NCBI GenBank assembly: GCA_903868035.1
Contig: CAIPTQ010000263.1
Location: 1 to 23,756, forward strand
DNA length: 23,756 nt
Reading direction: 5' to 3'
DNA from: an uncultured Phycisphaerales bacterium
Lineage (GTDB): Bacteria > Planctomycetota > Phycisphaerae > WQYP01
The notes beneath the pieces were generated by a model. It ran no database searches. It was given only the letters and a program-made list of their open reading frames with translations, and was not told where the DNA came from. Made by a program: the position numbers and the translations under genes. Every line of letters begins with the position of its first letter. The first letter of the stretch is position 1. Below, piece after piece: positions 1-22,787 of this stretch.

Positions 1-3000
1 GCCAACTCAAAATGCCGCTGCGCCGCCGCCCCGGGATCGCCAATCGGAACGCCAATCTCCCGCTTGGCCGTCGCGCACCGCTTCGCCGCCATCCCCGCCC
101 AATAATGCAGCTCACTATTATTCTGCAGCAAATGCCACGCCTCCCCCAGATTCTCCGGCGCCTCCAGCCCCGCCTCAAACCACCCCAACGCCGCCCGCGC
201 ATCCCCGCCCTCCCGCCACAACGCCTCCCGCCCCAATCCCACATGCGCCCGCACCCACTGCCCCAGCACCAGCCCCTCGCCCCCCTCCCACGGCATGAAC
301 CGCCGCCCCCGCAAAATCCCCCGCGCCTCCTCATACCGCTGCAACTGATTCAGCACCGCGCAATATTCAATCGTCAAATCATCCCGCTGCCGCACCAGGT
401 GCAAGAACTTCTCCATCTCCTCCACCCGCTTGGCCGGCGTCTCCTGCGTCCGCTTCCACAACTGGTCGCGCTCATAAAAAATCCGCGCATCCCCCACCGC
501 CGCCACCTCCGCCGCCGCGGCATCCCGTAACGCGGGCATCTTGCCCGCCGTCTCCCCCTGTAACGCGGGCGTCTCGCCCGCCCCCGCCACCGCGTCCAGC
601 ACCGTGTTCGCCTGCCCCGACATATATGTAGTCTCCGATGGCCGCCCCGCCATCGCCCCCGCCCCAACCGCCCCCGTCGACGCCAAACTGTTCCGAAACG
701 CCCGCTGATACGCCCCCTTCGCCGCCATCTTGTCCCGAAACACGTTGTAGTACCCCATCCCCAAATTCCGCCACACCGTCGCAAACGCCCCATCCAGCTT
801 CGCCGCCTTCTCCCACCACCCAATAGCCTCCTCCTTCCGCCTCTTGTCATACAATAAATTCCCCAAATAATAAGGCGCCCGCGCATCCTCGGGATTCTTA
901 TCAATCGCATCCAACAGAATCGCAATTTCTTCAAGCCGATGCGGGAAGCAGTAATCGGGGGATGCGGCCGCTGCCGCACGCAGGTAATTGACTTGAGCGC
1001 GCTGCGCTCGGTCCTGCTCATGTTTGCCCTTACCCCAAATTCCCCAGATATAGGCGGCCAGATACCACACCATGGGTGTGGAACCTAACTCTACTTCTCC
1101 TCCAATGGGCGGAGGTTCACGCCATTGGCCAATTGGGTGACCGAGTTCGCCCGACTTATTTGCTTGTGGCAATCCCGATCGCAACATCAGTATGTATGCT
1201 TCCTGTCTTCGCCCCTCCCTTAGGAAGTCGTAAGCTGTATCAAGAATGATTTGCCAACCGCAAACCGGTTCCCATTGCCCGCCAAAATCCAGCGGATCGA
1301 GCGCCCGTGTTTCTTTATAAAGCGCGATTGCTTCCTCCCCGCCATTACCGAGCAGAGCAACTTTCAAGTGCCGTGCCTGCAAGTGGTCAGGCTGCGCCTG
1401 AAGCGTTCTGTTAACGTGCTTGAGGGCTTCCGTCCGATTCTGCTTTGACCAATCCATCTGCGCCATCGCAAACCACGCCGCCCCCTGCCACGCCTCATTC
1501 CACGCCGCCTTCCCCAACGCATCATATGCCTCCTCCACCCGCCCCAAATACCGCAGCGCAATCCCCAGGTTATAAAACACCTCCCCCTCCCGCGGATTCG
1601 GATTAAACTTCGTCAACGTCCCAATCGCCGTCTGGAAGCACCCCACCGCCTTGCCAAACTCCCCCCGCCGCAGATGCCACAACCCCAGCGCATTGTTGCA
1701 CCGCGCATCCCCTGGCTCCCGCCGCAGCGCCTCCCGCCAATAATCCTCCGCCCGCCGCGTCGCATGCCGGTACTGCTCCAAGTGTACCCCCACCAAATAC
1801 AAATCCTCCACCGATGCAATCTCCCCCGGCAGCCCCGGCTCCCGCGCCGCCGCCGGCACCTCCTTCCTCTCCAACTCCACCGCCTGATACCCAATCACCT
1901 CCCGCGCCCCCGCCTCCGCCGATGCATACAACGATAACCGCAAATCCGTCACCTTCGTCCCACTATCCACCGCCACCTCTCGCACCACCGGAGCATCCGG
2001 CCCAATCTCACACGTCTCCTCAAACACCACCTCATCCCCCCGCCGCAAAACCACCCGACACTTCTCCATCGCCGAAGTCACCCCCACCCCAATCCTCACC
2101 ACTGCTCCCATGCCACTGTCTCCCCCTCTCCTTGTCTCCTTGTCTCCTTGTCTCCGTGTCATCCCGAGCGACACCGCCGCCTCCACATTCGCCGCCTGCG
2201 CCACCCCGATCTCCCGTATCGGATACCAATACTGCGAAAACGCCCGCGTCTCCCCCGGCATCAGCCACGAAAAGTCCGGCTGATTGTCCGTATACACCCC
2301 CGCCATCAATTCAATATATGGCCCCGGATAATTCCGTCGATACGGCCCATCCACATCTTTATCTTTATCTTTTTCTTTCTCTTTATCTTCTTCGTGCGTC
2401 TTCGTGTACTTCGTGTTCTTCGTGGTTACGTCCGCGTCCGTCAGATTCCCATCCCACGCATATCCGAACGGATGATTCCCCCACGTCCACAATTTCTTCC
2501 CCGGCGCGATCCGGTGATCCGCCACGTGTACAAACCCCGCCCCCGCATAATGGTCATACCCCCCGAAAAAATCCTCCTTCGACCCCATCGCCATATAACT
2601 CGTCGGCACCGGTATGTTCGCATACCAGCTCAAATCGTTCGGCGCATAACCAGGCCATTTTGTGGTGCCGGCATGGTGCGCGGGTGCCGCGGCAGACGGT
2701 TTTGGTGGCTCGGACATGGTGCCGCATGCGGGGAAGCGCTGTTTTACGTCGCGCAAAATGCTCTCATTGACGCGCCTTCGCGCCGCATAATCCACGCCGT
2801 AATACGAACCTTCACACAACGGAAACCGGCTCATCGCCCGCTTCGCATGGTCCGCCACATACTGCACATCCGGCGGAAAAAAAGCCTGGTAAAATTCATG
2901 TACCCGCGCCCCCACATTCGCCCACCACAAAAACGTCTGCGGCAGTTCCGTCCGGTTATAAAGCCTTGCCTTCACTTCAATTAGCGACGACCCCGGCCGC

Positions 3001-3533
3001 AGGCAAATCCCCTGCATCCCCTTCATCCGCGTCATCGGCTCATGTTCCGCACACCACACCGTCACCGCCCCATCCCCATGCTCCTCAATCTCCGTCTCCA
3101 CCGCCATAAATGTCGATGGCCTATGATGTTGCGGCCAATTGAACTCCACCCCCCCCGATATCCACGGCCCCGCCAACCCCACCAAAGCCGGCTTGATCAC
3201 ATTCTGCCGGTAGAAAAAATCGTACCCGTTCGTCCGATCTAAACCCACATGTATTCTTCCCCCAAGTTCAGGCAGGATCATGAGTTGCAGATACTCGTTC
3301 TGCATGTGAATCGCCTGCCACGCCCGGTCTTTTTTCGTCTCCGCTATCCGCTCCACAAACGGCAGCGGATACACCTTCCCCGACGACCCCTGATACACCC
3401 GTTTCTCAAGAAACATGGGGTTTTTATCCGCCGGCATCGGCTCATACGTCGGTATCACCACCGGCGCACGCCACACCTTCACCGGTTTTCCCGCCAGTTC
3501 CGCAGGTGCCTCAGGTAACGTAAATCCCGCCAT
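1..3533 (-). CDS. DUF5107 / TPR-repeat protein (C-terminus beyond window)
   Basis: The frame is open from the ATG at 3533 to the left edge, 1177 codons with no stop. Residues ~25-350 read as DUF5107: IPTYEPMPADKNPMF, LPELGGRIHVGLDRTNGYDF, GGVEFNWPQHHRP and IPVPTSYMA are visible. From ~residue 500 onward the protein is TPR-like, with helical pairs such as ARCNNALGLWHLRRGEFGKA and ARAPYYLGNLLYDKRRKEEA. No signal peptide is seen. The beta-rich DUF5107 part resembles aldose-epimerase/glycan-binding folds, so a role in carbohydrate metabolism is a guess; the biochemical function is unknown to me. The gene is divergent from the LamG lipoprotein. Shine-Dalgarno is weak (GGAG about 20 nt upstream), so the start rests on domain position. 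Codons mostly end in G, unlike many neighbours. Four insertion-like segments lie near residues 253-293, 370-393, 458-474 and 985-1004; they are listed separately. The last visible residues (AAAQRHFEL) are typical of the family's end, so little should be missing. Confidence 0.88.
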   Translation of the reverse strand, partial: MAGFTLPEAPAELAGKPVKVWRAPVVIPTYEPMPADKNPMFLEKRVYQGSSGKVYPLPFVERIAETKKDRAWQAIHMQNEYLQLMILPELGGRIHVGLDRTNGYDFFYRQNVIKPALVGLAGPWISGGVEFNWPQHHRPSTFMAVETEIEEHGDGAVTVWCAEHEPMTRMKGMQGICLRPGSSLIEVKARLYNRTELPQTFLWWANVGARVHEFYQAFFPPDVQYVADHAKRAMSRFPLCEGSYYGVDYAARRRVNESILRDVKQRFPACGTMSEPPKPSAAAPAHHAGTTKWPGYAPNDLSWYANIPVPTSYMAMGSKEDFFGGYDHYAGAGFVHVADHRIAPGKKLWTWGNHPFGYAWDGNLTDADVTTKNTKYTKTHEEDKEKEKDKDKDVDGPYRRNYPGPYIELMAGVYTDNQPDFSWLMPGETRAFSQYWYPIREIGVAQAANVEAAVSLGMTRRQGDKETRRGGDSGMGAVVRIGVGVTSAMEKCRVVLRRGDEVVFEETCEIGPDAPVVREVAVDSGTKVTDLRLSLYASAEAGAREVIGYQAVELERKEVPAAAREPGLPGEIASVEDLYLVGVHLEQYRHATRRAEDYWREALRREPGDARCNNALGLWHLRRGEFGKAVGCFQTAIGTLTKFNPNPREGEVFYNLGIALRYLGRVEEAYDALGKAAWNEAWQGAAWFAMAQMDWSKQNRTEALKHVNRTLQAQPDHLQARHLKVALLGNGGEEAIALYKETRALDPLDFGGQWEPVCGWQIILDTAYDFLREGRRQEAYILMLRSGLPQANKSGELGHPIGQWREPPPIGGEVELGSTPMVWYLAAYIWGIWGKGKHEQDRAQRAQVNYLRAAAAASPDYCFPHRLEEIAILLDAIDKNPEDARAPYYLGNLLYDKRRKEEAIGWWEKAAKLDGAFATVWRNLGMGYYNVFRDKMAAKGAYQRAFRNSLASTGAVGAGAMAGRPSETTYMSGQANTVLDAVAGAGETPALQGETAGKMPALRDAAAAEVAAVGDARIFYERDQLWKRTQETPAKRVEEMEKFLHLVRQRDDLTIEYCAVLNQLQRYEEARGILRGRRFMPWEGGEGLVLGQWVRAHVGLGREALWREGGDARAALGWFEAGLEAPENLGEAWHLLQNNSELHYWAGMAAKRCATAKREIGVPIGDPGAAAQRHFEL
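527..582. repeat. Tandem pair of 23-bp palindromic repeats inside the DUF5107/TPR gene
   Basis: Two copies of GTAACGCGGGCRTCTYGCCC followed by GCC lie at 527-549 and 560-582. They match at 21 of 23 positions, 33 bp apart. Each holds a perfect inverted repeat, GCGGGC / GCCCGC, around a 5-nt loop. In the gene's frame they encode GETPALQ and GKMPALR, near residues 985-1004, between TPR helices. It looks like a dispersed palindromic repeat tolerated in frame rather than part of the fold. Confidence 0.75.
2110..2162. repeat. 8-bp tandem repeat (TTGTCTCC)3 with flanking degenerate units, in coding frame
   Basis: Three perfect TTGTCTCC units occupy 2132-2155. They are flanked by degenerate copies (TGTCTCCCCCTCTCC on the left, GTGTC on the right). 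On the gene strand they read as GACAAGGA words and are translated as MTRRQGDKETRRGGDSG, near residues 458-474. This hydrophilic segment sits between AAVSLG and VVRIGVGVTS, which would otherwise be adjacent in the fold. Confidence 0.75.
2349..2429. repeat. Compound tandem repeat (ATCTTT)n + (CTTCGTGTN)n in coding frame
   Basis: Three ATCTTT hexamers (2355-2372) pass through degenerate TTTC units into 9-10 bp CTTCGTG words at 2390, 2400, 2409 and 2418. In the DUF5107 frame this gives TTKNTKYTKTHEED followed by KEKEKDKDKD, residues ~370-393. The charged stretch splits GNLTDAD from the conserved GPYIELMAGVYTDNQPDFSW block, so it is probably an inserted surface loop. Confidence 0.75.
2655..2780. 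repeat. Candidate ~40-codon in-frame insertion in the DUF5107 domain
   Basis: Residues ~253-293 separate YYGVDYAAR from PGYAPNDLSWYANIPVPTSY, blocks I would expect to be nearly adjacent in this family. The inserted segment contains CGTMSEPPKPSAAAPAHHAG and looks unlike the domain. The plus strand carries three GGTGCCG words. I suspect a dispersed element but see no terminal repeats or target duplication. Only a comparison with homologues would settle it. Confidence 0.45.
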
Positions 3534-4551: not shown

Positions 4552-4575
4552 TCATTTAGTCATTTAGTCATTTAG
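4552..4575. repeat. (TCATTTAG)3 tandem repeat between tRNA-Arg and the SDR gene
   Basis: Three perfect 8-bp units start 14 nt after the tRNA, followed by the decayed unit ACATTGGG. The reverse strand would read as NDQMTK-like words if translated. The period of 8 matches the TTGTCTCC array inside the DUF5107 gene, though the word differs. It lies in the would-be leader of the SDR gene. Confidence 0.75.
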
Positions 4576-4592
4576 ACATTGGGTTATTGAGC

Positions 4593-18600: not shown

Positions 18601-19888
18601 CAAGGACAAGGGCTATGAATGGTTCGGCGGCAGCACCCCCGGCCACGAGGCCCTGACCGCCTACGGCCTGATGGAATTCCGTGACATGCAGACCGCCGGC
18701 CTGGCCGTGGTCGATGACAAAATGGTGGAACGCACCCGCACCTGGCTCATCTCCCGCGAGGACGGCAAGGGCGGCTTCCAGCGCAATGCCAAGGCGATCG
18801 ATTCCTTCGGCGGCGCGCCGGAACTGACCACCAACGCCTACATCGTCTGGGCGCTCATGCAGGCCGGGCAAACCGGCCTGGACCGCGAAATCACCGCCGT
18901 GCGCGACGCGTCCAAGACTTCCACCGACAGCTACGTGCTGGCCCTGGCCGCCAACATCTGCGCCCTGTCCAAGGACGCCGACAACGGCAAATTCTTCATG
19001 AACGCCCTGGCCAAAAAGCAGAACAATGACGGCGGCGTCGATGGCGCCGTCACCAGCATCACCCGCAGCGGCGGCCAGGCCCTGGCCATCGAAACCACCG
19101 CCCTGGCCACCCTGGCGTGGATGAGCGAAAAGGATTTCGCCGGCAATAACCAGAACGCCATCAAGTTCCTCGCCGATTCCTGCAAGGGCGGCCGCTTCGG
19201 CTCCACCCAGTCCACCATCCTGGCCCTCAAGGCCATCGTCGCCAACGACAAGGCCCAGGCCCATCCCAAGGCCCCGGGCAGCCTCGCCCTGTTCATCGAC
19301 AACAAGCAGTTCGGCGAGCCGGTGGCGTTCACCGCCGAATCCAAGGGCGCCATGACCTTCGACAACTTCGCCTCCAACCTACCCCCCGGACCGCACAATG
19401 TGGATATCCGCATGACCGACGGCAGCGAAATGCCCTTCTCCCTGGGCGTCAATTTCAACTCCCTCACCCCCGCCACCGACAAGCAATGCAAGCTCGACCT
19501 GGTGACGGTCCTCAAGGACGCCCAGATCGCCGAGGGCGGCATCACCGAAACCCGCGTCGCGGTCGCCAACAACACCACCAAGGATGCCGCCAGCCCCGTG
19601 GCCATCGTCGGCATCCCCGGCGGCCTGCTGGTGCGCCATGACCAGCTCAAGGAACTGGTCAAGGCCGGCAAGATCGACGCCTATGAAGTGAACGGCCGCG
19701 AGGTGGTGCTCTACTGGCGGCAGATCAAGGCCGGCGTGAAGAACGAGGTCTCGATCTCGCTGATCGCCGATGTGCCCGGCGTGTACACCGCCCCGGCGAG
19801 CCGCACCTATGAGTATTACACCGATGAGTTCAAGCAGTGGGCCGAGGGCAACCGGGTGACCATCACGGCCAACAACACGGCCAAGTAG
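15677..19888 (+). CDS. Secreted alpha-2-macroglobulin with thioester
   Basis: A 1403-residue macroglobulin of the thioester protein family. These trap proteases after bait cleavage by covalent linkage through a Cys-Gln thioester. Seen in order: export signal (KLSLTALALAAAGAA) and Pro/Ala linker; MG2-like YVATDKPIYRANDKVYVRAVLL (~residues 55-76); further beta domains; a Gly/Met/Ala-rich, bait-like stretch at ~576-688; the A2M block RSDFTETVYWNAGIKTDDTGKGTASF (~705-730); thioester C927-F-E-Q930 in GCFEQTSSSNYPLAM; the alpha-helical thioester domain (TTNAYIVWALMQAG, TQSTILALKAI); and a C-terminal receptor-like domain. No lipobox is present, so it is periplasmic or secreted rather than lipid-anchored. 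No pbpC partner, common with proteobacterial A2M, is nearby. The start is the ATG at 15677 (GAGGT 8 nt upstream). Codons switch from G/T-ending to C-ending near 17,700. Confidence 0.93.
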   Translation: MAQKNHIGKLSLTALALAAAGAAPMPPVPAPATAPAPKVGLSTSKDLGGTDRFLSYVATDKPIYRANDKVYVRAVLLNAATHQPLADNAQAQATVTILGPRGETVASGGAQSQDSVVGFAWTVPEGASGGEYTFKITYPYQGYAPSERKFDVRIYRAPRLRNQVLFARDGYGAGDKVTATVHSERAEGGFPAGAKVTVTARVDDMQVYTGPATVDAKGDCTATFDLPKLMERGEGTLAFAIEDGGVVETAAKTIPILLQTLDLTIYPEGGDPVAGVDNRYYMEAKTPAKKPADVVGVVVDSQGKAMATVRTEHEGRARFDFTPVKGETYTLRLSEPTGITKTWNLPAAKDHGVALQSVGDIVLKEAPVNLKLFATDAGTYKVTLSKRESTVVEAVNMTLAAGATGAVKFSPKAEVDGVLTATVWNDKGEPLAERLIYRQPLHEVKVTVTPSQSTYTPGGKASLNILTTDETGKAISATVGLTVTDDTIQEMIEKREQAPRLPVMVLLEGEVKGLADAHVYLDPKNPKAELATDLLLGTQGWRRFATYNADEFMTKYGDDAKRVLAFVKPEPPRPTGMAGGFGGGGRAGGAGGAMPMRAAAGMAMNGAVAEAMPVPAAMPMPMDALKKDEMLLDDRKALPPAAPQAKVAADQAQGMMAPAMPIAPGGGGGAGRRGGVALRPMGGGPGALLIVREYAHALRPNWTPTDRSDFTETVYWNAGIKTDDTGKGTASFALADSVTTFRVFADAFGKTGALGSSSSTIQADKPFSIEPKIPLEVTAGDVIELPISAVNNTPNAFKDFTLTVAASGNLKIEAPKPAPDLAAAGRVRQVYKITVGDKVGDIDLTINAAAGEFVDKVTKQLRVRPKGFPTQFAFGGLVDAASPAKKQILVPNSLVPNSMTTFATVYPSPMANLTDAVAALMREPNGCFEQTSSSNYPLAMAQTYIINHQGIDPKLAARGQELLGKGYQKLIAFECKDKGYEWFGGSTPGHEALTAYGLMEFRDMQTAGLAVVDDKMVERTRTWLISREDGKGGFQRNAKAIDSFGGAPELTTNAYIVWALMQAGQTGLDREITAVRDASKTSTDSYVLALAANICALSKDADNGKFFMNALAKKQNNDGGVDGAVTSITRSGGQALAIETTALATLAWMSEKDFAGNNQNAIKFLADSCKGGRFGSTQSTILALKAIVANDKAQAHPKAPGSLALFIDNKQFGEPVAFTAESKGAMTFDNFASNLPPGPHNVDIRMTDGSEMPFSLGVNFNSLTPATDKQCKLDLVTVLKDAQIAEGGITETRVAVANNTTKDAASPVAIVGIPGGLLVRHDQLKELVKAGKIDAYEVNGREVVLYWRQIKAGVKNEVSISLIADVPGVYTAPASRTYEYYTDEFKQWAEGNRVTITANNTAK

Positions 19889-19942
19889 TTCGTAGTAGTT
19901 CGTAGCAGTTCGTAGCAGTTCGTAGTACAGCCTTTAGGCTGT
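19886..19942. repeat. (TTCGTAGYAG)4 tandem repeat and hairpin at the macroglobulin stop codon
   Basis: Four 10-bp TTCGTAGYAG units start directly after the TAG stop (19889-19928); the stop itself fits the repeat phase. The perfect hairpin ACAGCC-TTTA-GGCTGT (19927-19942) overlaps the last unit. No T-run follows, so termination by this hairpin alone is doubtful. It looks like a dispersed composite element. Confidence 0.75.
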
Positions 19943-20052
19943 CCATATGAGGTGCCATACCGTTGCCCGCGGTTTCAATTCGGCGCTGCACGATGAGGTA
20001 TATTGTCGGAAGTTGGCGGGCGCTTACCGGTAATACATGTTGATTGGTGCGC
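19943..20052. other. Convergent gap between macroglobulin and GH28 genes
   Basis: 110 nt with no ORF and no good terminator on either strand. Nothing beyond the repeat to its left is recognised. Confidence 0.4.
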
Positions 20053-21624
20053 TTACGGTGCCGGGGCATTGGGCCGGGTCGCCGGGGCGGTGGCGGCAGG
20101 TGCGGGACGCGACGCGGGGGCGTTGTTGACGATGAAGGCCGGGCCGCCGTTGGGAAGGGTGATTTTCAGGCCCGAGGTGTCGAGGTTGGCGGTGTTGGTG
20201 AGGCGCACGGCACTGCCGGAAGTGAAGTTGCAGTCCTGGAAGAGGATGTTGGTAATCGGGGAATCGGGCAGGCCGGAGATGCCGCCGCCGCCGCTGGCGT
20301 TGCCGGTGACGTTGATGACGTAGACGTTGCGGACGATGGTGGGCATGCGCGGGCCGGAGGAGGAGGCGCGGGTCCAGTTGAGGTTCATGTCGAAGATGGA
20401 GCGGACGTTGTCGATCTTGATGTTGCGGTAGACGATATTTTCGACGATGCCGCCGCGGGTGAAGTTGGATTTGAAGCGGATGGGGGCCCAGTTGCCGGTG
20501 TCCATGAGGGTGTCGCGGGTTTCGACGTTGCGGATGCCGCCGGAGACTTCCGAGCCCATGTCCACGCCGCCGTGGCCGTAGGCCATGTGGGAGTTGACGA
20601 CGAGGATGTCCTCGCTGGGCCGATTGACACGGCGGCCGTCGGCATCCTTGCCGGACTTGATGGAGATGCAGTCGTCGTTGACGTCGATGGTGGTTTTTTC
20701 CACACGCACGCGGCGCGAGGAGTCGATGTCGATGCCGTCGGAGGAGGGCACGCGGCGGGTGGGGTCCTTGATATCGACGTTGTAGACGAGGAAATCGGTG
20801 CAATAGAGGATGTGCAGGCACCAGACGGCCTGGTTCTGGAGGTGGATGTCCTTGACGGCGCAGTTGGTGCAGTTGGTGAACACTACGAGGCGCGGGCGTC
20901 CACCGCCGCCCATGGCGGCAAAGGCGGGATCGGGCGGATTGTCGGGCGTGGGGGTGAGGACGCCCTTGAGCGGCGGGAAGGTGGTCTGCGGGCGGCGGGC
21001 GACTTCGGGCGCCGGGCCGCGGGCGGGGGCCGGCGCGGTGGCGGGCGATGAGGCCGGGCCGCGAGCTGTGGCGGGGCCGCGGGCAGGGGCCAGGATGCGG
21101 CCGCCGAACTGGTCGCCGGAGCCGTCGATGGTGCCTTCGCCGGAGATGGTGATGCCGTCGACATTGTTGGCGTTGATGAAACCGGCGGAGAAGGGGCGTT
21201 CGATGCCTTCAAAGCGGGAATCGACGATGGGGTAGTCGGCGGGGTCGGTGGAGCCTTTGAGGGTGGTGTCCTTATCGACGCGGAGATGGACGCCTTTCCT
21301 GAGCAGGATGGCGCCGGAACGGAAGGTGCCGCCGGCGGCGGTTTTGGCGACCACGACGGTGCCCCCGCCCTGGGCCGAGCACGTGTCGATGGCTTTTTGG
21401 ATGGCGTCGGTGTTGAGGGTAGTGCCGTCGGGGACGGCGCCAAAATCGGTGATGGGGAAATCCTTGCCGGGGGGGAGGAGCTTGGGCAAGGGGAAATCGA
21501 GGGGTTTGGGGACGGGCGGAATGGCCGAGGGAGCCGTGGCGGCACGCGGGCCGGCAGGCGCGGCGGCGAGGCCGATGGAAGCCAGGAACAGCGCCAGGAT
21601 AGCGGACGCGATGCGGGTGCGCAT
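20053..21624 (-). CDS. Secreted GH28 polygalacturonase-like glycoside hydrolase
   Basis: A 523-residue exported GH28 enzyme, expected to hydrolyse galacturonan or rhamnogalacturonan in pectin. A signal peptide (ASAILALFLASIGLAAAPAG) leads to FPITDFGAVPDGTTLNTDAIQKAID, the usual entry to the right-handed beta-helix. The GH28 motifs are present: D296 in SSDGIDID (in place of NTDG), D317-D318 in NDDCISIKSG, H351 in GHGGVDMGSE, and R383/K385 in IRFKSN. A Pro/Ala/Arg-rich insert (~179-209, ARGPATARGPASSP...) interrupts the helix, and the C-terminal tail is Pro/Ala/Thr-rich. Shine-Dalgarno GAGGT, 6 nt upstream, supports the start. It is last of three same-strand genes, after an epimerase and a CE12-like esterase. 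Exo or endo action cannot be told. Confidence 0.92.
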   Translation of the reverse strand: MRTRIASAILALFLASIGLAAAPAGPRAATAPSAIPPVPKPLDFPLPKLLPPGKDFPITDFGAVPDGTTLNTDAIQKAIDTCSAQGGGTVVVAKTAAGGTFRSGAILLRKGVHLRVDKDTTLKGSTDPADYPIVDSRFEGIERPFSAGFINANNVDGITISGEGTIDGSGDQFGGRILAPARGPATARGPASSPATAPAPARGPAPEVARRPQTTFPPLKGVLTPTPDNPPDPAFAAMGGGGRPRLVVFTNCTNCAVKDIHLQNQAVWCLHILYCTDFLVYNVDIKDPTRRVPSSDGIDIDSSRRVRVEKTTIDVNDDCISIKSGKDADGRRVNRPSEDILVVNSHMAYGHGGVDMGSEVSGGIRNVETRDTLMDTGNWAPIRFKSNFTRGGIVENIVYRNIKIDNVRSIFDMNLNWTRASSSGPRMPTIVRNVYVINVTGNASGGGGISGLPDSPITNILFQDCNFTSGSAVRLTNTANLDTSGLKITLPNGGPAFIVNNAPASRPAPAATAPATRPNAPAP

Positions 21625-22690: not shown

Positions 22691-22723
22691 ACGTGCTCCT
22701 CAAAATGAGAGGGTGAGAATGAT

Positions 22724-22744
22724 GAATTATGAATTATGAATGAT
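22724..22744. repeat. (GAATTAT)2-GAATGAT 7-bp repeat in the epimerase leader
   Basis: Two perfect GAATTAT units and one variant (GAATGAT) form an AT-rich island in GC-rich surroundings, ~35-55 nt before the epimerase start. It looks like another word-type repeat; promoter function cannot be excluded. Confidence 0.6.
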
Positions 22745-22787
22745 GAAATGGGAAGCGCGGCGATTGGCGAGCGCGTTAGTTGGCGGA

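Follow-up and report, generated by a model that had tools for sequence, protein, structure and literature searches.

The 23,756-nt contig CAIPTQ010000263.1 of an uncultured Phycisphaerales bacterium, analysed over its whole length (hereafter the window), carries at one end a minus-strand gene (3..3533) for a DUF5107/TPR protein. We consider it likely that loops of this protein and of its relatives hold in-frame repeats of kinds that are scattered in the genomes of the group, namely tandem arrays with units of 6-10 nt and REP-like hairpins, and that these repeats were seeded blindly, after which selection kept the in-frame insertions in loops. A preliminary description of the window, made from its letters, had noticed four insertion-like segments in this one gene, and this observation held: the frame is open over 1177 codons to the window end, where it is truncated, and the segments lie where an alignment with 120 homologues shows gaps.

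The profile of DUF5107 (PF17128) matched residues 53-376 with 141.3 bits, against a curated cut-off of 24.4 bits, and was followed by TPRs. The predicted fold matched TPR proteins and, further down the list, galactose mutarotases. Together, the Pfam and fold matches describe a galactose-mutarotase-like DUF5107 protein with TPRs, whose 1177 residues run to the window end. Its closest homologue, P0002, belongs to a Phycisphaerae bacterium and was 61% identical over 72% of the length (among the best 120 of 7997 scored homologues).

Arrays within the frame were detected with Tandem Repeats Finder. Segment B (2343..2426, minus strand; residues about 370-397) consists of a nonamer array (2400-2424; period 9, 2.8 copies, score 43) beside a hexamer array with the unit AAAGAT (2355-2389; period 6, 5.8 copies, score 56), and its outer end reads ACCACGAAG. 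Segment C (2127..2160, minus strand; residues about 458-469) is an octamer array of GGAGACAA (period 8, 4.2 copies, score 61), the unit of which is free of stop codons in both orientations. The tandem arrays of the preliminary description were thereby recovered, at a corrected count of three instead of two, two of them being adjacent. Segment E (495..695, minus strand; residues 947-1013) is a block of about 63 residues between TPR helices that holds a pair of hairpins resembling repetitive extragenic palindromic (REP) elements. Segment A (2649..2771, minus strand; residues about 255-295) is an unclassified long loop of about 40 codons, situated at a loop that accepts arrays elsewhere in the family. 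A further insert, D (1095..1163, minus strand; residues 791-813), is older and was ruled out as a recent insertion, as it is common to the window protein and P0002. The partial P0002 stops before segment E and is uninformative on it.

Whether these segments interrupt the family was read from two alignments, one of the window protein with the best 120 homologues, and one of 201 sequences, in which these 121 are joined by a single open frame from each of 80 of 585 loci. In the first, residues 947-1009 of segment E were occupied in at most 1 of the 120 homologues, residues 460-469 of segment C in at most 10, and the pieces 255-265, 269-274 and 285-293 of segment A in 2-4. Segment B (371-403) had a mean occupancy of 5.6 out of 120 and a maximum of 59, the latter owing to its end, which aligns with residues shared by many homologues. 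In the second alignment, the window protein was the most inserted sequence of all 201, with 7 inserts of at least 8 aa that add up to 167 aa; the runner-up, P0110, had 5 inserts (104 aa), and the median was 17 aa. The peptides GKMPAL, GETPAL, PALQG, GDKETR and QGDKE of the window protein appeared in none of the other 200 aligned sequences.

An AlphaFold model built on 97 sequences (mean predicted local distance difference test [pLDDT] score 80.5, predicted template modelling score 0.85) gave good confidence for most of the protein outside the segments. Values of pLDDT below 50 were found at 256-282 (segment A), 369-402 (B), 798-803 and 807-814 (D) and 956-1013 (E), with segment C being intermediate (mean 56 over 461-470). 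The repeat segments are thus predicted to read as floppy or disordered loops.

The palindromic repeat pair of the preliminary description was confirmed in segment E. Both hairpins (532-548 and 565-581) are preceded by GTAAC, and the resulting units (527..548 and 560..581, plus strand) lie 33 nt apart in the same orientation, each with a 7-bp stem and a 3-nt loop, sharing the consensus GTAAC-GCGGGC-R-TCT-Y-GCCCGC. The TCT loop is identical between them, and the closing base pair shows a compensated change (A-T versus G-C). Read in frame on the minus strand, the first unit encodes GKMPALR and the second GETPALQ. The fold of 511-600 was more stable than expected (z = -3.35; 0 of 200 shuffles as stable). 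A candidate third unit (628..655, plus strand), composed of GTAG, 4 nt, a 7-bp stem and a 6-nt loop, also lies within segment E, its z of -1.99 being weak alone. A GTAG-tagged hairpin outside the gene (19922..19942, plus strand) directly follows the long gene at 15.5-19.9 kb, in an intergenic position, and is preceded by a decamer array (19884-19927); the fold of 19884-19960 had a z of -2.83. Over the whole window, four GT[AG][AG]-tagged 7-bp hairpins were counted, compared to a mean of 1.87 (standard deviation 1.58) in Markov sequences, which is not a significant count; what stands out is their clustering, with three of the four falling within 130 nt. The 7-bp stems and 3-nt loops of the pair agree with the 5-13 bp and 2-20 nt given for the GTAG REP superfamily in Table 1 of PMC3733652. 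The unpaired GTAA of the pair is neither GTAG nor one of the listed variants, GTAG itself being present in the third hairpin and the 19922 unit alone, and the pair is not filed here as a strict member of that superfamily.

Copies of the window's repeat units were counted in related genomes of the Verrucomicrobiota. The REP core was found in 3 of 115 of them, with 12, 9 and 11 copies, compared to one match in all for the control, and 26 of 31 distinct core units (loci L081-L110 and L239-L278) were preceded by GGGAGC or GGGAAC. Six of 30 distinct copies lay in called open reading frames, one of them deep in a long frame. In a GH2 protein the core reads AGKMPAL at residue 214, between a domain ending at residue 179 and another starting at 240, which is the same peptide frame as in the window. 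In a plasmid collection the REP block found only weak counterparts, in 27 records with a best E of 0.02, and 38 stretches of viral contigs contained the core among mixed flanks and were not used as evidence. A protein-database search with the REP block (residues 940-1012) returned no match at E up to 10 among 1715 word-sharing candidates, the query probably being too short for that database. As side observations, loop A of P0003 contains the peptide AAGKMP, which at the protein level could be a REP remnant, and the DUF5107 homologue at locus L071 (Prolixibacteraceae) has the peptide CLPAGRQG at another loop, encoded by the near-palindrome CTGCCTGCCGGTAGGCAG.

Arrays of the kinds seen in the window are dispersed in some related genomes as well. 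The nonamer ACGAAGNNCACGAAGNNCACGAAG was present in 13 of 194 Verrucomicrobiota genomes (0 for the reversed control in the rows listed), although in one of these genomes its five matches constitute a single array. Among 16 distinct nonamer places, obtained from 30 fetched loci on one reading strand, 15 begin with ACCACGAAG, like segment B, and at 8 an inverted partner lies no more than 130 nt away. The inverted pairs (L298, L299, L304, L308, L314, L315, L323 and L327), with their fixed outer end ACCACGAAG ... CTTCGTGGT, resemble a miniature element with tandem-repeat arms. The heptamer pattern CCAAAATCCAAAATC occurred in 6 of 18 Verrucomicrobiota genomes, chosen for holding the gene or the REP and not at random, with 8, 13, 1, 27, 1 and 16 matches, compared to 1 in all for the reversed pattern. 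From the 66 matches listed, 30 loci were fetched, yielding 23 distinct CCAAAAT arrays: 11 situated 30 codons or more within a called gene of at least 200 aa, 7 overlapping the edge of an open reading frame or a short one, and 5 intergenic. Ten of the 11 array-bearing proteins were scanned, and Pfam matches were obtained for 8, namely to gyrase/topoisomerase IV A, RecD2, an AMP-binding enzyme, dehydrogenase E1, an SNF2 helicase, an ABC transport protein, UvrB and coproporphyrinogen oxidase, with the other 2 having none. In the dehydrogenase E1 the array stands at residue 412, in the linker between domains ending at 358 and starting at 424, and in the gyrase-like and SNF2 proteins it precedes the first Pfam domain. 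In-frame arrays were seen in uvrA-, uvrB-, recD2- and hemF-like genes of Verrucomicrobiota, and the uvrA-like gene of genome G003 (L258:9343-12198) has three of them, with periods 7, 11 and 7. The window itself contains another four arrays with units of 7-10 nt, which lie in intergenic DNA or at gene borders, starting at 4552, 9626, 19884 and 22717 (score 41-74); these include the octamer array of TCATTTAG at 4552..4580, which has stop codons in both orientations, and the GAATGAT heptamer array at 22717..22747, listed by Tandem Repeats Finder. In the plasmid collection the octamer of segment C matched five records, a Burkholderia replicon (E 1e-4, the sole plasmid match below E 0.01), three cyanobacteria (0.02-0.3) and Limosilactobacillus (0.9). 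The suggestion of the preliminary description that the protein accepts repeat DNA as surface loops is supported by these data: the repeats sit where homologues have gaps, at places that the AlphaFold model predicts to be disordered, and are of kinds dispersed in related genomes.

An alternative is that the arrays grew in place, by local slippage from a short tandem already present in the gene, without any dispersal. The hexamer AAAGAT, the period of which is divisible by 3, could indeed grow within codons, and the exact 18-nt form of the segment C octamer was in none of the 18 genomes. However, slippage would not account for a nonamer that behaves as a dispersed element with one outer end and frequent inverted partners, nor for heptamer and octamer units that recur at several places per related genome, and it does not make hairpins of the REP kind. 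We regard local slippage as an unlikely explanation.

Relaxed selection, or decay of the gene, which the preliminary description had offered as one reading of so many insertions, appears improbable and found no support. It would fit the insert load, which is the highest of the 201 sequences, as well as the conserved columns: at those with at least 95% agreement in the other 96 rows of a 97-row alignment, the window protein keeps 302 of 318 common residues (95%), the third lowest score of the 97 (median 98.8%). However, its closest relatives diverge to a similar extent at these columns (P0002 95.6%, P0003 92.7%, P0004 94.1%, P0005 96.1%), so that distance may explain the low score. Moreover, the frame is open over all of its 1177 codons, and most of the remaining protein is predicted to be well ordered. 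Five of the 120 relatives listed for the neighbouring isopropylmalate dehydrogenase carry an organism name (one Tepidisphaeraceae, one Phycisphaerae, two Planctomycetes, and one metagenome-assembled genome of Bacillota). Judged by its sequence, the contig is that of a Phycisphaerae-like planctomycete in which the gene is open and conserved.

At the loop after residue 286, the site of segment A, some homologues carry peptides such as KSKIENQKSKIE, SAIGNRQSAI, SALRTSRSAL, KPETRNPKPETS and KAESGKRKAE, which repeat every 7 residues, as a translated 7-nt array must. Among 42 homologue inserts of at least 12 aa at this loop (the window's own insert is shorter there and was not counted), 93 of 429 positions matched themselves at lag 7, a value reached by 0 of 2000 shuffles, with self-match being 4-8% at lags 3-6 and 8-11. 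The loops after residues 756 (65 inserts) and 790 (29 inserts) gave no lag-7 excess. In DNA, which was available for 32 loci (30 fetched, L001 and L004), the 286 loop held CCAAAAT arrays (L185, the same gene as L008), CTCAACT arrays (L190) and degenerate AATTCCA heptamers (L001). In L185 and L001 another array was made out by eye, near residue 664; in the G003 sample Tandem Repeats Finder lists the array at the 286 loop but not this additional one. P0015 and P0113 are 86.4% identical outside the 286 loop, yet have different repeat-like peptides inside it, and L179, 76% identical to P0066, has a short loop where P0066 has an array. Heptad-like loops were present in 17 of 123 rows and required at least 15 state changes on a FastTree tree computed without the loop columns, gain and loss being indistinguishable. 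Instead of distant taxa sharing the same segments at the same places, the outcome that would have spoken against insertion, the comparison revealed different repeats at one shared place.

These loop data also bear on the possibility that the inserts act as adaptive linkers or binding segments and were favoured by selection for their function. The repeated filling of the 286 loop with a stretch of similar length would be in line with such a role. However, the peptides that fill it differ in sequence, relatives do without it, and no conserved motif was seen, making a selected function for the loops improbable.

Segment A itself is more difficult to place. The block had been described as foreign-looking, and it stands as a long loop, whereas a foreign origin found no support: P0002 also has a long loop at this position, one that varies family-wide, and no credible relative turned up in the plasmid collection (2 records, at E 0.4) or among viral contigs, none of which contained a 22-nt piece of it. 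No tandem array (Tandem Repeats Finder) and no hairpin (fold z = +1.98) was detected in it either. Nothing thus supports reading segment A as repeat, hairpin or fragment of a foreign gene, and it is an insert only in a weak sense.

The fate of arrays in coding and intergenic DNA was compared in a 387-kb sample of G003, counting arrays whose period, between 5 and 12 nt, is not a multiple of 3. Intergenic DNA held 59 such arrays in 53.9 kb (1.09 per kb), and core coding DNA 12 in 260.7 kb (0.046 per kb), being 24 times rarer there; codon-shuffled G003 genes gave 2.7 arrays versus the 12 observed. Three genes had at least two arrays (permutation 0.010) and one had three (0.27), which makes clustering in particular genes only suggestive. 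A mechanism of insertion that spares the frame, or a selection of repeats for being compatible with coding, as the preliminary description had also contemplated, is very improbable: the in-gene units of the sample are stop-free in at least one orientation in 12 of 12 cases and in both in 8 of 12 (22 of 57 for intergenic units), the octamer of segment C is stop-free both ways, and 11 of the 23 CCAAAAT arrays lie inside genes, but intergenic units are stop-free in at least one orientation in 49 of 57 cases (86%) compared to 87% of shuffled units, array density in coding DNA is 24 times lower than in intergenic DNA, and survival accounts for the rest. This depletion, the position of the arrays in loops and linkers, and intergenic units that are no more stop-free than shuffled ones together indicate that blind insertion followed by selection suffices.

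How such blind seeding might proceed can be sketched as follows. Repeats would enter the DNA regardless of frame, with arrays spreading by slippage or by copying from another array during repair (the array-to-array copying being a guess), and with REPs being moved by a tyrosine transposase or a remnant of one. Insertions into coding DNA would mostly be lost, and the survivors would be those that are in frame, stop-free and in a loop. An array with a period of 7, 8 or 10 would read as one cyclic peptide whichever frame is used. The frame would then matter only at the array end, and adding or losing one or two units could restore it downstream. Arrays of this type would hence be unusually easy for genes to accommodate. 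It is possible, and we put this forward tentatively, that 7-, 8- and 10-nt arrays form a standing supply of new disordered loops in the Planctomycetota-Verrucomicrobiota, with a self-repairing frame, and that certain loops, such as the one after residue 286 of DUF5107 proteins or those in UvrA, go through repeated rounds of filling, loss and refilling by unrelated arrays.

A number of points weigh against blind seeding of dispersed repeats as the explanation. The copies were counted in related genomes and not in that of the host, the genes around arrays and REPs in those genomes were called by our own script, and the absence of the exact segment C octamer from the 18 genomes counts here as well. 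In place of GTAG, the REP hairpins carry the tag GTAA in the window and, for the most part, GGAG or GGAA in Verrucomicrobiota, and the exact core was beside 0 of 19 Y1-transposase loci (stretches of 1.8-3.3 kb from four genomes, three of which have the core). Segment A has no repeat signature, and pLDDT values below 50 also occur in three short stretches that are not inserts (45-52, 117-124 and 136-139). The arrays of L216 and L231, two of the eight proteins with a Pfam match, precede the first Pfam domain, where the start could be miscalled. G396 has 27 CCAAAAT matches but 2 intergenic arrays with a period not divisible by 3 in 399 kb, which ruled it out as a second array-rich genome and, when set against G003, indicates that array load differs greatly between genomes. 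With regard to the lag-7 signal, the 42 inserts come from related proteins, so that the shuffles are not a strict test; the loop after residue 460 (10 inserts), beside segment C, has a weak signal that 85 of 2000 shuffles reach; and under a strict test, which asks for runs of at least 3, 12 of the 201 loops qualified at lag 7, 6 at lag 5 and none at lags 6, 8 and 9. Arrays at the 286 loop are moreover uncommon, being read in the DNA of 3 of the 32 loci, about 15 of which have a short loop belonging to another subfamily, and the loop peptide of P0113 is too weak for the heptad-like-loop test used on the tree.

Some further features of the window were recorded. The C-over-G skew of the DUF5107 gene drops at 901-1500 and 2551-2850 (-0.26 to +0.13, compared to about -0.3 to -0.7 over most of the remaining gene), looking as if base usage were mosaic. 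Within 19884-19942 the decamer array of AGTAGTTCGT runs directly into the GTAG-tagged hairpin and resembles multiplied copies of the tagged end of that hairpin. The gene at 20053-21624, which by eye we take to be GH28-like, includes a Pro-Ala-Arg-rich low-complexity stretch (20988-21145) with degenerate GC-rich repeats. Rfam models returned only a tRNA at gathering scores over the window.

The origin of protein-loop insertions is usually obscure, since no trace of it is left. Here the kind of source is still legible, as the repeat families also occur between genes, and the repeated capture of arrays by one loop suggests how repetitive DNA can supply new protein loops. The lag-7 signature provides a simple way to spot translated heptamer arrays in protein alignments, and the idea of frame repair predicts that unit steps differ in genes versus between genes. 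The findings also carry a warning: a protein peptide such as GKMPAL or SKIQNPKSKIQ may be repetitive DNA in translation rather than a conserved motif.

Among known systems, the Rickettsia palindromic elements are palindromes inside open reading frames that leave these frames unbroken, and we know of no case in which they are combined with tandem arrays. They are named in PMC3733652 with the tag CGTC, and they share with the window pair a palindrome in an open frame, differing in sequence and tag (CGTC versus GTAA). In the sections drawn upon here, the same paper (Di Nocera et al. 2013, PMC3733652) describes intragenic GTAG/CGTC REPs as tagged hairpins, often in pairs or clusters, in conserved genes, many of them encoding 20-30 residues and some clusters 43-82. 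These sections further report that intragenic GTAG units are most numerous in Opitutus terrae (Verrucomicrobia), each of whose two uvrA genes has a double insertion, suggest flexible linkers or loops as places where REPs are tolerated, and hypothesise that REP-associated tyrosine transposases (RAYTs) move GTAG REPs. The window gene is alike in holding a tagged hairpin pair in a conserved gene, and the uvrA-like gene of G003 with its three arrays is the gene type that carries REPs in Opitutus (PMC3733652). Unlike the REPs described there, however, the window pair has the tag GTAA and a head-to-tail arrangement, and its gene also harbours unrelated tandem arrays. No link to a transposase was found at the 19 Y1 loci of four related genomes.

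The heptameric repeats of Xanthomonas and Nostoc are dispersed 7-nt arrays that are mostly intergenic, with 11% and 7% lying in or overlapping genes in two xanthomonads and 68% being intergenic in Anabaena (PMC4692102, in the portion available). That paper concerns G-rich units and quadruplexes, and a term search of this portion gave no 'in-frame', 'in frame' or 'amino acid'. The window gene differs from such arrays in its units of 8, 9 and 6 nt, and its relatives have 7-nt units at the 286 loop. The TAACTGA direct repeats of Beggiatoaceae are dispersed heptamers, intergenic by the title of the paper (PMC4679880), with a regulatory reading, protein loops being no part of the start of its abstract. 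Among the literature matches listed, no paper described repeated capture of unrelated arrays by one loop, most subscription journals lying outside the search. Repeats inside genes are already known, as the consulted sections of PMC3733652 document, and what appears to be new here is their repeated capture by one and the same loop.

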